Part shown: positions 1,347-7,782 of the stretch, piece by piece | Layout: the number at the start of each line of letters is the position of its first letter | Numbering within the stretch: the first letter of the stretch is position 1 | Source of the DNA: Oscillospiraceae bacterium | Lineage (GTDB): Bacteria; Bacillota; Clostridia; Oscillospirales; Acutalibacteraceae | DNA length: 45,732 nucleotides | Reading direction: 5' to 3' | Assembly (NCBI GenBank): GCA_009779995.1 | Contig: WRDW01000013.1 | Coordinates: forward strand, 1 to 45,732 | Program-made: the position numbers and the translations under genes | Notes under the pieces: model-generated | Told to the model about the DNA's origin: nothing | Seen by the model: the letters and a program-made list of their open reading frames with translations, nothing else | Databases searched by the model: none

Positions 1347-1356
1347 ATGATTTCTC

Positions 1357-1384
1357 CTGTTATAATTTGTTTGTATTATAACAG
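1357..1384 (-). promoter_or_regulatory. Operator candidate of the XRE gene
   Basis: Perfect inverted repeat CTGTTATAAT-N8-ATTATAACAG between the promoter and start codon of the XRE gene. One half contains the -10 hexamer and the other abuts the ribosome site. This is the classic position for autorepression. Binding by the XRE protein is inferred. Confidence 0.6.
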
Positions 1385-1403
1385 AGATTTTTTACTTTTT
1401 CAA
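1375..1403 (-). promoter_or_regulatory. SigA-type promoter of the XRE gene
   Basis: TTGAAA (1403-1398), 17-bp spacer, TATAAT (1380-1375), read on the minus strand, about 30 bp upstream of the start codon. Confidence 0.65.
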
Positions 1404-1443
1404 TGGCTTGTTGTTTGTTGCAAACGCAAACGCGGGTTGATTT

Positions 1444-2121
1444 TCACCCCAGCCACCCCCGCAGCTTGGCCAGAATCGCCTTCTCCTTGCGCGAGACCTG
1501 CACCTGGGTCATGCCCAGCAGCTCGGCGGTGCGGCTTTGGGTCATGGATTTGAAGTAGCGGCACTCCACCAGGCGGCGCTCGGGCTCCTCCAGGCTGTCG
1601 AGCACCTGCCGGAGGGCGATTTTGTCTGAAATGCCCTGCGCGGGGGATTCCACCGGCAGGTCCCACTCCTGCGCGCCGCCGCCGTCCCCGGCGGCGGTGA
1701 GGGACAGCACCGGCAGGCCCGCCCCCAGCAGCATGGCCGCCTCGCCGGGCTCCATGCGGGCCTCGGCGGCCAGCTCCGAGATGCTCGGCTCGCGCCCAAG
1801 GGAGGCCGCCAGTGTTTCTTGCAATCGCAGCAAGTCGCGGGCCTTCTCTTTTGTGGTGCGGCCAACTTTGACAGCGCCGCCCTCGCGGAACAGGCGCTTG
1901 ATCTCGCCCAGGATCACCGGCACGGCGTAGGTGGAGAAGGCCAGGCCGCGCCCGGGGTCGAAGGCGTCGGCGGCCTTGATGAGCCCCACGCAGCCCGCCT
2001 GCACCAGGTCGTCGAACTCCGCGCCGCGCCCCGTGAGCCGCCTCGCGCAAAGGTACACCAGGCCCATGTTCTGTTCCACAAAGGCGTTTCGATTTTCTGT
2101 TGCCGGGCTTGTTGCGATCAT
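1444..2121 (-). CDS. sigF: Sporulation sigma factor SigF
   Basis: 225-residue sigma-70 family protein, the first forespore-specific sigma factor. Region 2 is clear (VYLCARRLTGRGAEFDDLVQ, then FDPGRGLAFSTYAVPVILGE), followed by region 3 and a region 4 helix-turn-helix (SRTAELLGMTQVQVSRKEK). The ATG overlaps the spoIIAB stop codon in an ATGA arrangement, which fixes the start and indicates translational coupling. It is the last gene of the spoIIAA-spoIIAB-sigF operon. In this family SigF is held inactive by SpoIIAB until SpoIIAA is dephosphorylated. Order, overlaps and lengths match the canonical operon. Confidence 0.97.
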   Translation of the reverse strand: MIATSPATENRNAFVEQNMGLVYLCARRLTGRGAEFDDLVQAGCVGLIKAADAFDPGRGLAFSTYAVPVILGEIKRLFREGGAVKVGRTTKEKARDLLRLQETLAASLGREPSISELAAEARMEPGEAAMLLGAGLPVLSLTAAGDGGGAQEWDLPVESPAQGISDKIALRQVLDSLEEPERRLVECRYFKSMTQSRTAELLGMTQVQVSRKEKAILAKLRGWLG

Positions 2122-5644: not shown

Positions 5645-6217
5645 ATGCGCAGGGACATGCGCGCGAGCCGCAAGACGCAGTACACCCGGCAGGCGCTGGA
5701 GGACGGCCTGATCGAGCTGATGCGCGCCAAGCCCTTCGAGAAGATCACCGTGACGGAGCTTTGCGCCCACACCGACATCAACCGCTCCACGTTCTACATG
5801 CACTACGAGGACATCTACGCGCTGCTGTGCTCCATAGAGGAGGGGGTGCTGGAGTGGCAGCGCCGTGGGACCGACGACCTGGACGGCAAGCTGCTGGAGG
5901 GCCGGGAATCCACGATTCGTTCGCTGGAGCTCCTGTTCGCGTACTTTGTGGAGAACGGCAAATATTTACAGGTGCTCATGAGCGAGCACGGGGACATCTA
6001 TTTCCAGAGGCGCTTCTTTGAGGCCGCCTACCGCATGAGCAACCCCGCGGGCGCGCGCAACCCCCGAAAAATCCCCCTCACGGATGACCCGGCCTACGTG
6101 TTCCTGGTCAGCGGCGGGGTGGGGCTGATCCAATACTGGCTGAAGAACGGGCTGAAGGAATCCCCGCGGGAGATCGCGGAGATCATCTACGACATGGGCC
6201 TGCCGATCAGGAAATAA
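5645..6217 (+). CDS. TetR/AcrR-family transcriptional regulator
   Basis: 190 residues. The N-terminal helix-turn-helix is typical (YTRQALEDGLIELMRAKPFE, then KITVTELCAHTDINRSTFYM and HYEDIYALL). The C-terminal ligand domain ends GGVGLIQYWLKNGLKESPRE, a pattern common in Clostridial TetR proteins. The ATG at 5645 is preferred over an in-frame GTG at 5627 because AAAGGGGG lies just before it. It is divergent from the 29-aa ORF and the iron-sulfur reductase, whose promoter carries a similar half site. Inducer unknown. Confidence 0.9.
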   Translation: MRRDMRASRKTQYTRQALEDGLIELMRAKPFEKITVTELCAHTDINRSTFYMHYEDIYALLCSIEEGVLEWQRRGTDDLDGKLLEGRESTIRSLELLFAYFVENGKYLQVLMSEHGDIYFQRRFFEAAYRMSNPAGARNPRKIPLTDDPAYVFLVSGGVGLIQYWLKNGLKESPREIAEIIYDMGLPIRK

Positions 6218-6227
6218 CGCTTTCTCG

Positions 6228-6821
6228 TCAAAAATCCACTTTCTCAGATAGAGCGCTGCGCAGCGCATCGAGAGATACTCTTTTATGGTTGACGAATGAA
6301 GGCGCTCCATATGTTTTGGCGAGACGCGGCTTTTTGAATATCGCTACAACGGGGTATGCCTTCTTTGTGATATTTCGTATGTCCTCTTTCAGCGCCGTAT
6401 TGGGAACATAGAGTCTTTGGGTTTTTATAAAACCCAGCACAGAGCGGACAGTTCCCGCCAACACATCGGTTTGCAGGTTCATTCTGCTACCGTCGTATTC
6501 GCCGATTATACACGCCTTGTTGTGAAACTGCATCAATTCCGCCAGAATACTCAGCTTTTGCTCCGTTGTCTGGTCTTGCTTCATTCTGAACGCGGACGGT
6601 TTCAGCGCGTTGCGCAGAGCACGATAGTAGAATTCGCCGGGATTCAGATTGCAGTCTACACCCGTTAGGTGCATAAAATTGTGCCGGTTAAATTCCGCTT
6701 CGCAGGAGCAAAGCGTTCCATTTTCTTCCGATACAAACAGGATGCTCGTTTCCGCCAGGTTTGCCTCATATAGCTGTGCGCACCTGCGTATTATCGGCAC
6801 AGCTTGCTTCGCCGTCATCAT
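6228..6821 (-). CDS. PBECR4-like (BECR-fold) nuclease, putative type III toxin
   Basis: 197 residues. By eye it matches the PBECR4 group of phage barnase-EndoU-colicin E5/D-RelE-like nucleases: the signature FNRHNFMHLTGVD, then EFYYRALRNALKPSAF, a central QKLSILAELMQFHNKACIIGEY, and a C-terminal YPVVAIFKKP. Family assignment needs a profile search. Upstream on the same strand lie a strong promoter, two 52-nt direct repeats bounded by A5, and a hairpin, in the order seen in type III toxin-antitoxin loci (repeat RNA, terminator, RNase toxin). AAAGG lies 12 nt before the ATG at 6821. Base composition is lower in GC than the neighbours, which suggests transfer. It converges on the TetR gene. Confidence 0.65.
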   Translation of the reverse strand: MMTAKQAVPIIRRCAQLYEANLAETSILFVSEENGTLCSCEAEFNRHNFMHLTGVDCNLNPGEFYYRALRNALKPSAFRMKQDQTTEQKLSILAELMQFHNKACIIGEYDGSRMNLQTDVLAGTVRSVLGFIKTQRLYVPNTALKEDIRNITKKAYPVVAIFKKPRLAKTYGAPSFVNHKRVSLDALRSALSEKVDF

Positions 6822-6847
6822 CTTGCCATTTGACCTTTCAAAATTTT

Positions 6848-6888
6848 AAAGGGAAGCGCAGGGCCCGCAAGCCAAGGCACTTCCCTTT
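6848..6888 (-). terminator. Hairpin between repeat RNA and nuclease gene
   Basis: Stem of 12 pairs (AAAGGGAAG-U-GC / GC-G-CUUCCCUUU on the minus-strand RNA) with a 17-nt loop, followed by UUUAAAAUUUU. The weak U-tract suggests a leaky attenuator, as found between antitoxin repeats and toxin in type III systems. Confidence 0.6.
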
Positions 6889-6901
6889 ATGGTTGATTTT
6901 T

Positions 6902-7005
6902 GGCTGTCCGCCAGCCACCGGCACCCGAAGTCCGGCAAGTCTTTCGGGTTTTTGGCTACCCGCCAGCCACCGGCACCCGAAGTCCGGCAAGTCTATCGGA
7001 TTTTT
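6902..7005 (-). repeat. Two 52-bp tandem direct repeats
   Basis: Units 6954-7005 and 6902-6953 are contiguous, with four substitutions between them. A T5 tract (A5 in the minus-strand RNA) marks each boundary with an exact 52-bp period (7001-7005, 6949-6953, 6897-6901). Confidence 0.9.
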
Positions 7006-7042
7006 AAGGTGTCAACCCACCCGCAGCTTGCGCTGCACTTAT

Positions 7043-7071
7043 AGTATATGCGATATTTCTCGTTTTGTCAA
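7043..7071 (-). promoter_or_regulatory. Strong SigA-type promoter of the repeat RNA/nuclease locus
   Basis: Minus strand TTGACA (7071-7066), 17-bp spacer, TATACT (7048-7043). It points into the two 52-bp repeats. No ORF lies between it and the repeats, so its first product is the repeat RNA. A small hairpin (GCAGC-GCAA-GCTGC) lies just after the expected start. Confidence 0.8.
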
Positions 7072-7140
7072 GCACTTTTTTGTCTCCTCTCCTCTGCCAT
7101 AGCGACGCTTTCCGGGAATCTGTCCGCTACCCGACGCATT

Positions 7141-7174
7141 TTAAAAAAGTGACGCATTTGCGTCACTTTTTTAA
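7141..7174. terminator. Perfect palindrome, bidirectional terminator-like
   Basis: 34-bp perfect palindrome (16-bp arms, 2-bp loop) TTAAAAAAGTGACGCA / TGCGTCACTTTTTTAA. With T6 on both sides it can stop transcription from either direction and insulates the toxin-antitoxin-like locus from the plus-strand genes. Confidence 0.7.
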
Positions 7175-7183
7175 ATACTGAGC

Positions 7184-7213
7184 TTGCAAAAGGCAGCCCG
7201 TGTGCGGTATACT
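7184..7213 (+). promoter_or_regulatory. Promoter of the 7266 small-protein operon
   Basis: TTGCAA (7184-7189), 18-bp spacer, TATACT (7208-7213), ~50 bp upstream of the ATG. Confidence 0.65.
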
Positions 7214-7265
7214 GCCCTTGAAAACGAGACTGGCTCGTTTATCTTGATTCAGGGAGGTCTTCACC

Positions 7266-7526
7266 ATGAAACGCGCACTGGCAATATTCCTGGCGGCGCT
7301 CATGCTCCTGGGCGTATTCGCGATCTGCGCCGGCGCGGCCGGCGAGCCGGCGCTGCCGCCTGCCCCGTCCGGCCTGGCGCAGCAGATCATGAACTGGCTG
7401 CTCTACCTGCCGAACCTGATTGCCCCCGGCTGGGCCGACGAGGCCGCCGAATACCTGGTCTTCTTCAGCGGCGTAGTTCCGCCGCCCTTCAACTGGCTGA
7501 TCATCTGGTTCCTGCGGGCTCTGTAG
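7266..7526 (+). CDS. Small secreted or membrane protein (86 aa)
   Basis: Signal peptide MKRALAIFLAALMLLGVFAI with an A-G-A-A cleavage region, then an amphipathic/hydrophobic body (QQIMNWLLYLPNLI) and a C-terminal hydrophobic segment (FNWLIIWFLRAL). The ribosome site AGGGAGG is strong and a promoter is present. It is followed 41 bp later by another small hydrophobic ORF with its own ribosome site, so the two are probably co-transcribed. No family recognised. The tryptophan-rich hydrophobic tail recalls the tail of the 43766-44260 protein in this window. Confidence 0.6.
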   Translation: MKRALAIFLAALMLLGVFAICAGAAGEPALPPAPSGLAQQIMNWLLYLPNLIAPGWADEAAEYLVFFSGVVPPPFNWLIIWFLRAL

Positions 7527-7567
7527 CGGCGCGGACCGCCAACTTCAACGAAAGGAGATTTCGAATC

Positions 7568-7687
7568 ATGTTGTCCTTCCTCCCCATCGTCGGGCCGGTT
7601 TTCTGGCTCCTGAAGGTCATCTTCGGCGCGCTGTCCCTCGTGCCCATCGTCGGGCCGTTCTTCGCCCTGCTCGCGCTGGTGCTGTGA
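7568..7687 (+). CDS. Small hydrophobic protein (39 aa) with internal repeat
   Basis: Two copies of a PIVGP(V/F)F motif, SFLPIVGPVFWLLKVIF and SLVPIVGPFFALLALVL, forming one or two membrane helices. AAAGGAG lies 11 nt before the ATG. Likely co-transcribed with the preceding small protein. Function unknown; a bacteriocin-like or small membrane peptide is possible. Confidence 0.5.
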   Translation: MLSFLPIVGPVFWLLKVIFGALSLVPIVGPFFALLALVL

Positions 7688-7697
7688 GCAGGCGCTA

Positions 7698-7750
7698 ATA
7701 CTATTCCCGCTCTGATAGAGCGCACTGCTCTTTTAGAACGGGAATAGTAT
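7698..7750 (+). terminator. Long stem-loop after the small-protein operon
   Basis: Perfect 12-bp inverted repeat ATACTATTCCCG / CGGGAATAGTAT enclosing 29 nt that contain a second hairpin (GCTCT-gat-AGAGC). Position suggests a 3' end structure for the 7266-7687 operon, but there is no T-tract after it. Confidence 0.4.
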
Positions 7751-7782
7751 AAGTATCAATCATGGCTTTCGTAGAGAGCAAA

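Follow-up and report, generated by a model that had tools for sequence, protein, structure and literature searches.

The locus described here, carried by a gut bacterium, lies on the reverse (-) strand of the window, by which we mean the whole analysed stretch of 45,732 nucleotides. A single promoter is followed by tandem RNA repeats, a terminator-like hairpin and a gene, which is the order of a type III toxin-antitoxin locus; promoter and terminator are recognised here as matches to consensus. All four elements had been proposed in the original prediction and all were recovered. The promoter TTGACA-17-TATACT was located by a promoter scan at 7043-7071 (-35 element TTGACA, 7066..7071; -10 element TATACT, 7043..7048; spacer 17 nt) and agrees with the consensus in 11 of 12 letters. 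Scanning of positions 6780-7120 returned one further, weaker site, and shuffled sequences gave 0.2 sites on average. Downstream of the promoter lie a 5' hairpin (GCAG-CGCAAG-CTGC, 7023..7036), which several relatives seem to carry at about the same place (by eye, uncounted), and a leader hairpin (7008..7021), whose loop GGTTGA (7012-7017) is complementary over 6 bp to a trailer, TCAACC (6891..6896), at the far side of the repeats.

The repeats are two contiguous units of 52 nt, as claimed, 92% identical and each opening with AAAAA. In unit 1 (6954..7005) the AAAAA (7001-7005) is followed by a start word TCCG (6997-7000), stem A (CCGG/CCGG, 6984-6987 with 6970-6973) and hairpin 1 (6954-6968) with the loop CGGGT (6958-6962). 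Unit 2 (6902..6953) repeats this plan: AAAAA (6949-6953), the start ACCCG (6945-6949), which is complementary to loop 1, stem A (6932-6935 with 6918-6921) and hairpin 2 (6902-6916), whose loop CGGA (6907-6910) is complementary to the start of unit 1. A third AAAAA linker (6897..6901) ends the array. Both the leader/trailer pair and the closed ring of complementarities go beyond what had been predicted. Between array and gene lies an imperfect hairpin with a weak T-rich tail (6848..6888), in keeping with the leaky terminator suggested earlier; in a terminator scan no more than the 5 inner pairs contributed to the score. Hairpins in the corresponding place were read by eye, uncounted, in many relatives. 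The gene, on the same strand, is an open reading frame of 197 residues (6228..6821, -); since a second ATG directly follows the first, the protein may have 196.

No other tandem repeat in the 45.7-kb window scores as high as the array (Tandem Repeats Finder, 194; runner-up 137). The covariance model built from such arrays, R1, scores unit 1 with 47.4 bits (6949-7002) and unit 2 with 53.4 bits (6897-6950), both units being among the sequences used for building it. At gathering score, Rfam, in which we presume an abiF family to be present, yielded no family in window positions 6000-7300, in 15 further array loci or in L037. The 242-nt window RNA folds better than its own shuffles by a modest z of -2.6, calculated with a program whose model does not include pseudoknots.

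Some further features adjoin the locus. Directly 5' of the promoter, at 7140-7175, is a perfect 17-bp inverted repeat (TTTAAAAAAGTGACGCA/TGCGTCACTTTTTTAAA) resembling a bidirectional terminator, which gives a weak Rfam score for SpF25, below gathering. Beyond it (7266-7688) are two short hydrophobic open reading frames, one of 86 aa and another, very small, in which the motif PIVGP is repeated, and after these a 27-nt inverted repeat (7695-7753).

By its sequence, the gene product is a predicted nuclease of the PBECR4 family (Pfam PF18813; E 8.5e-29, 101.7 bits against a curated cut-off of 27), and we annotate it as a putative ribonuclease toxin. That it would resemble PBECR4 and none of the named type III toxins was anticipated, and the comparison with relatives bears this out. 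PF18813 matches all 29 members of our alignment A3 at E<=1 (best 1.5e-36). Beyond PBECR4, these 29 gave scattered weak noise against NCBIfam, PADLOC and Pfam. None of the named type III toxins was among the Pfam and NCBIfam matches, and models of ToxN, CptN and TenpN are presumably present in these libraries. At E<=10 the window protein itself had no hit in NCBIfam or PADLOC. When a profile of the putative toxin was run against all PDB chain sequences, a set that should include CptN (4RMO), the best match was an unrelated protein (E 0.61). The structure of the window protein was predicted by AlphaFold2 from 29 sequences with a pLDDT of 96.2; fold searches of the PDB with it gave no convincing match, and two unnamed viral predicted structures resemble its fold (E 6e-13 and 1e-10). 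Residues invariant in the 29 relatives include H51, T53, K89, N141, T142, D147 and K164. PBECR domains are predicted endoRNases, and the passages of PMC5512222 drawn upon here describe an active site with a conserved His and a C-terminal Thr/Ser; our guess is that H51 and T142 are these residues.

We then asked how widely array and gene go together. PF18813 was present in 14 of 398 genomes of a family sample and in 29 of 391 genomes of a class sample, and the matches from both make up 43 loci (L001-L043). By reading upstream sequences, 12 of the 43 were picked for a common array; the proteins of these 12 share the consensus ..CA..Y..NL.NK..LLF... Seven of them served as queries in a protein-only scan of the genome collection, which gave 40 loci. 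The array was present in 38 of these (34 detected by R1; L048, L063 and L081 at E 0.04-0.1 with the model unfiltered; L052 by reading), 8 of the 38 being copies of picked loci, so that 30 remain. In the other two, the contig ends inside the gene (L082) or the array and the N-terminus have been deleted together (L084).

The array clade comprises 57 loci, 48 of which have the gene in a single open frame, and not one of these 48 (38 distinct at 95% identity) lacks the array; 43 arrays were called by R1, 4 by the unfiltered model at E 0.04-0.1 and that of L052 by reading. Setting aside 11 that were chosen because of their arrays and 8 that duplicate chosen loci, an unselected sample remains, in which an upstream array accompanies 29 of 29 intact genes (28 distinct). 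Counted over the 45 clade loci not picked for an array, the figure is 37 of 37 intact genes, the 8 copies included. Outside the clade, R1 found nothing at E<=0.1 in the remaining 31 loci of L001-L043, the upstream region of L018 consisting partly of N. The expectation that repeats precede homologues of the gene stands for 48 of 48 intact clade genes and fails for PBECR4 at large, 31 of the 43 loci, all outside the clade, lacking this array. On a tree of 75 proteins the label 'array' (42 rows) changes once; the branch of the array clade has low support (79/21), and 80% of bootstrap trees agree with it. Nearest to the clade among proteins without array are L023, L037, L040 and L089. Broken genes make up 8 rows of the clade (L082, at a contig edge, left out). 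Seven rows, representing 6 distinct loci, keep the array, and L084 is the only one that does not. Some 'broken' genes, for example the frameshifted L051 and L083, could be assembly errors. Among the genomic data, the strongest pointer to a toxin and its antitoxin is this asymmetry: arrays are retained beside broken genes, and every intact clade gene has one.

Comparison of the arrays revealed a common pairing code. From 5' to 3' they consist of a leader hairpin (loop a), an A-rich segment, start b, stem A, hairpin 1 (loop c') and an A-rich segment, followed by start c, stem A, hairpin 2 (loop b'), an A-rich segment and trailer a'. In the window RNA the pairings are CGGGU of loop 1 with ACCCG of start 2, CGGA of loop 2 with UCCG of start 1, and GGUUGA of the leader loop with UCAACC of the trailer. 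For counting, arrays were parsed blindly to pairing, by stems, loop sizes, A-rich linkers and spacing, which kept 35 of 87 loci (25 distinct arrays), and a pairing was scored when at least 4 contiguous Watson-Crick pairs could form within the same locus. Against 1000 shuffles, which ignore relatedness between arrays, the leader loop matched the trailer in 21 of 25 distinct arrays (shuffle mean 12.7, maximum 18), loop 1 matched start 2 in 20 (3.5, 9) and loop 2 matched start 1 in 22 (9.9, 17). Pairings off the ring occurred in one array of 25 each (leader loop with start 1 or with start 2, loop 1 or loop 2 with the trailer). Pairing within a unit was seen in 8 of 25 for both loop 1 with start 1 and loop 2 with start 2, mostly in arrays with the same or similar words in both units; the latter count also exceeds its own shuffle maximum of 7. 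Ring pairing was better than self-pairing in 15 of the 25 arrays, equal in 9 and worse in one, L057, where each loop pairs with the start of its own unit. A separate earlier parse gave 19 of 22 and 21 of 22 ring pairings, with 15 arrays favouring the ring, 6 ties and 1 self. The recurrence of the three pairings, leader with trailer, loop 1 with start 2 and loop 2 with start 1, suggests that the units pair in a closed cycle.

The words themselves change together. Loop 1 and start 2 co-vary in at least 12 ways: CGGG/CCCG, CAGG/CCTG, CAGA/TCTG, GAAG/CTTC, AGAG/CTCT, CGAG/CTCG, CGGA/TCCG, GTGGG/CCCAC, TAGG/CCTA, CTGG/CCAG, TTGG/CCAA and GCAAG/CTTGC. In the stems, 40 cells of the alignment are changed on both sides, compared with 12.8 in shuffles (0 of 500 as high). 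Stem pairs with a double change show a mild excess (6 vs 4.1; 10 of 500 as high) and further stem pair types show none (13 vs 12.2; 205 of 500 as high); stem A is paired in only 66% of cells of this alignment, which was itself fitted to the RNA model. Sites agreeing with the promoter consensus in 9 or more of 12 letters lie 5' of the leader in 22 of the 25 distinct arrays and occur in 38% of letter-shuffled regions, which makes this a weak test. At the level of sequence, stems and loop/start pairings covary in a pseudoknot-like layout, and the linkage of array and gene, the conserved anatomy and the covarying ring are shown by these comparisons.

The number of units is not constant. Most arrays that we read have two; L052 has three, and single units occur in the Lactococcus phages 50101 and D4840 and in genomes G793 and G834, where the loop pairs with the start of its own unit (over 3 bp only in G793). 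Arrays with one or three units imply that a 2:2 ring is not universal. In a Ligilactobacillus plasmid (L151) the array (1540-1640, -) lies downstream of the PBECR4 gene, convergent and on the opposite strand, and its loop pairing is local instead of circular. By eye, L151 and L037 share a simpler local form, in which a hairpin loop matches a segment just 3' of its own A-rich linker. L037 has two short units 5' of a PBECR4 relative, each with a hairpin GGTC..GACC, an A-rich linker and a complement of the loop of 7-8 nt, and these resemble local H-type pseudoknots. Near the array and PBECR4 gene of L068 there is also a second, toxin-less array (5770-5930, -) with a longer segment in place of the first unit; L103 looks similar.

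Next, we examined arrays irrespective of a neighbouring gene. In the class sample, R1 found arrays in 16 of 391 genomes. The array precedes an intact or broken PBECR4 gene in 8 of the 16 (G000, G413, G448, G494, G594, G661, G731, G751), and in 7 (G411, G541, G564, G628, G642, G660, G666) no PBECR4-like sequence occurs within 2-3 kb of it, the contig of G666 ending soon after the array and the arrays of G411 and G660 seeming incomplete. The match in G622 looks false. In the genus of G642, arrays are present in 15 of 68 genomes and PBECR4 in 9 of 68. The array precedes an intact PBECR4 gene in G818 and a broken one in G661, G834 and, by eye, G822; in the other 11 of the 15 array-positive genomes PF18813 matched beside none of the arrays. 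Seventeen solitary arrays were examined; a full parse was obtained for 14, several of them closely related, and each of the 14 shows the ring. These are complete two-unit arrays with leader and trailer (L098, L099, L102, L105, L114, L117, L122, L123, L125-L129 and L132). G642 has three solitary copies and G788 two, and one gene, judged by eye to be radical-SAM-like, is the neighbour of a solitary array in each of five genomes (G642, G788, G805, G821, G823). We read the solitary arrays as candidate toxin-free antitoxins; their frequency counts against too simple a view of array and gene as a fixed pair. Because the array occurs also without the gene, it is not simply a leader of PBECR4 genes.

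Array and gene are frequently found on mobile elements. In a plasmid collection, array plus gene of L090 matched 79 records, and in 77 of these the match covers at least 80% of the two together; 77 of the 79 belong to Enterococcus and 56 are typed as conjugative. In the Enterococcus records viewed, the gene is annotated as 'PBECR4 domain-containing' or 'hypothetical'. Hand reading placed ring-coded arrays before PBECR4-like genes on plasmids of Pediococcus and Macrococcoides, an array with ring pairings of 3 and 4 bp before such a gene in Streptococcus phage Javan100, and the one-unit arrays of the two Lactococcus phages likewise before PBECR4-like genes. In Erysipelothrix phage phi1605 an automatic parse found a ring-coded array before a PBECR4 copy that is not in one frame. 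The window locus has a G+C content of 0.49-0.53, the lowest of the stretch examined, in surroundings of 0.53-0.66, and PF18813 had no match in the 6 other genomes of the same genus in the family sample. Low G+C and absence from these six genomes fit a lateral acquisition of the window copy.

Among known systems, CptIN of Eubacterium rectale is close in design. In the parts of PMC4627078 used here, it too has two tandem repeats 5' of the toxin gene, 45 nt long compared with 52 in the window, and the CptI pseudoknot is of the H-type, its L1 being 1 nt and its L2 long and A-rich, which is the topology that hairpin, A-rich linker and next start would give in our arrays. The same source describes a ring of 2 RNA and 2 protein molecules, and a 2:2 ring is plausible here as well, although the number of units varies. 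The CptI pseudoknot is contained within one 45-nt unit, whereas in the window array pairing runs between units, cyclically, with the leader/trailer pair in addition; also, our toxin profile matches no PDB chain sequence. ToxIN/AbiQ and TenpIN resemble the window locus in gene order with an intergenic terminator, in tandem repeats and in their presence on mobile elements, according to the sections consulted of the review PMC5086642. In the same sections, type III RNA rings, including the trimers of ToxI, are described as held by RNA-protein contacts only, unlike the arrays described here with their base pairing between units. In Pfam the window protein matches only PBECR4, and it matches no NCBIfam model; the putative toxin is not, by sequence, a member of ToxIN, CptIN or TenpIN. 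AbiF/RCd22 of Clostridioides difficile is alike in combining a phage-borne toxin with a structured RNA neutraliser that has two copies of a motif, but its toxin belongs to the Abi_2/AbiD/F family with structural links to Cas13 (PMC12373285, in the portions cited). Solo PBECR domains, the family of the window gene, have been described in phages and mobile elements; the passages of PMC5512222 used here treat these proteins as effectors, some probably injected, and mention no RNA partner. As far as we have searched, neither the PBECR4 toxin family nor the ring-coded RNA has been described in such a role.

PBECR4 genes of a sister clade are also preceded by RNA. Many of them have, 5' of the gene, an RNA that looks structured by eye, between a promoter-like sequence and a terminator-like hairpin. 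Drum RNA (RF02958) reached the Rfam gathering score in the upstream regions of 9 of 16 loci tested, these nine belonging to the sister clade (L002, L004, L007, L008, L010, L012, L020, L030, L039); it scored below gathering in L134 and L033 and had no match in L013, L023, L089, L137 and L138. Among 196 genomes, drum occurs in 6, in 5 of them over the cut-off, lying directly 5' of PBECR4 in G448, G503 and G577 (a short open frame) and elsewhere in G413, G432 and G445. Like the array, drum is situated between a promoter-like sequence and a terminator-like hairpin; in contrast, it is a separate Rfam family without match to the window array and belongs to the sister clade. We know of no function assigned to this Rfam family, and none was found in the literature looked at. 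The presence of drum before a second PBECR4 clade suggests that the association of PBECR4 with structured RNA may be general. Upstream of L134, L136, L137, L138, L023 and L089 we noted other structured-looking leaders with a terminator-like hairpin, and among the five scanned (L134, L137, L138, L023 and L089) only L134 had a drum match, below threshold. L007 has, besides drum, skipping-rope RNA (RF02924) above gathering at 1352-1448 (-).

We consider it likely that the window locus is a type III-like system in which the ring-paired array RNA inhibits a PBECR4 nuclease toxin. From one promoter, a leader hairpin, two 52-nt units and a trailer would be transcribed, and the leaky terminator would let a minority of transcripts reach the toxin gene. 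Covariation shows how the units are matched: a unit begins with its 5' start word, the stem-A hairpin and then a further hairpin come after it, and the loop word of the latter is complementary to the start word of the following unit. From the last unit the match returns to the first start, and the leader loop matches the trailer. Hairpin, A-rich linker and following start word would then adopt an H-type pseudoknot layout like that of CptI. By analogy to ToxIN and CptIN, the closed RNA may hold two toxin molecules, one at each linker junction, with their active sites blocked, and the toxin probably cuts in the A5 linkers, leaving a ring of 2 RNA and 2 toxin molecules. Upon loss of the module, or arrest of transcription by phage infection, the RNA would decay first and the nuclease would be set free. 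That the locus works in the manner of a type III toxin-antitoxin system, with a toxic protein and a neutralising RNA, we infer from this architecture.

Other explanations have to be weighed against this. The position of the array, 5' of the gene between promoter and terminator-like hairpin, would also suit a cis-regulatory leader that merely tunes PBECR4 transcription by attenuation, its RNA leaving the protein uninhibited. A closed ring between repeats would serve no obvious purpose in such a leader, which also accounts poorly for the downstream array of L151 on the other strand and for ring-coded arrays, complete with leader and trailer, that have no PBECR4 beside them, two in one genome and three in another; we think it unlikely. 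A duplication of a hairpin by chance, 5' of an unrelated phage-type gene, could be imagined from the window with its mere two repeat copies. It is already refuted by dozens of diverged loci that share the unit, its spacing, the leader and trailer and the ring code, and its probability is negligible.

Instead of inhibiting the nuclease, the RNA might activate or guide it, as its cofactor or as a sensor of some trigger, the two forming a defence effector. Their joint occurrence across the clade, also on phages and plasmids, would be expected in that case, and solitary arrays could act in trans. An activating RNA is nevertheless hard to reconcile with seven rows (6 distinct loci) that keep the array beside a broken gene, with the lack of any array-less intact clade gene and with loop and start words that pair inside the array, so that we see only a slim chance for it. 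Equally slim appears the prospect that the array is an old chromosomal small RNA with a job of its own, borrowed or targeted by PBECR4 elements. The repeated vicinity of the radical-SAM-like gene is seen in five genomes of a single genus, the one in which 11 of 15 array-positive genomes have no adjacent PBECR4. Outside this genus, 7 of the 12 credible array-positive genomes of the class sample, a modest majority, have the array directly before an intact or broken PBECR4 gene, and the solitary copies, as toxin-free antitoxins, could equally be anti-addiction remnants.

Inhibition of a PBECR4 toxin by the ring-paired RNA is thus our preferred reading, and a wider proposal can be built on it, about which we are slightly more doubtful than confident. 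Stand-alone PBECR4 nucleases may constitute a large unrecognised class of toxins whose RNA antitoxins fall into two or more unrelated kinds, among them drum and the ring-coded array. In the ring kind, the cyclic complementarity of the units would fix the number and order of RNA subunits and separate cognate from non-cognate arrays, and toxin-less chromosomal arrays would be anti-addiction RNAs directed against plasmid and phage copies. The design of a ring-paired array joined to PBECR4 recurs in many bacteria, plasmids and phages, and its code leads to sharp predictions for compensatory mutation. If our reading is right, it would extend the type III architecture by a new toxin family and by an RNA whose repeats form a closed cycle through mutual recognition by base pairing; it would also suggest a role for drum RNA and provide a candidate plasmid-maintenance module on Enterococcus plasmids.
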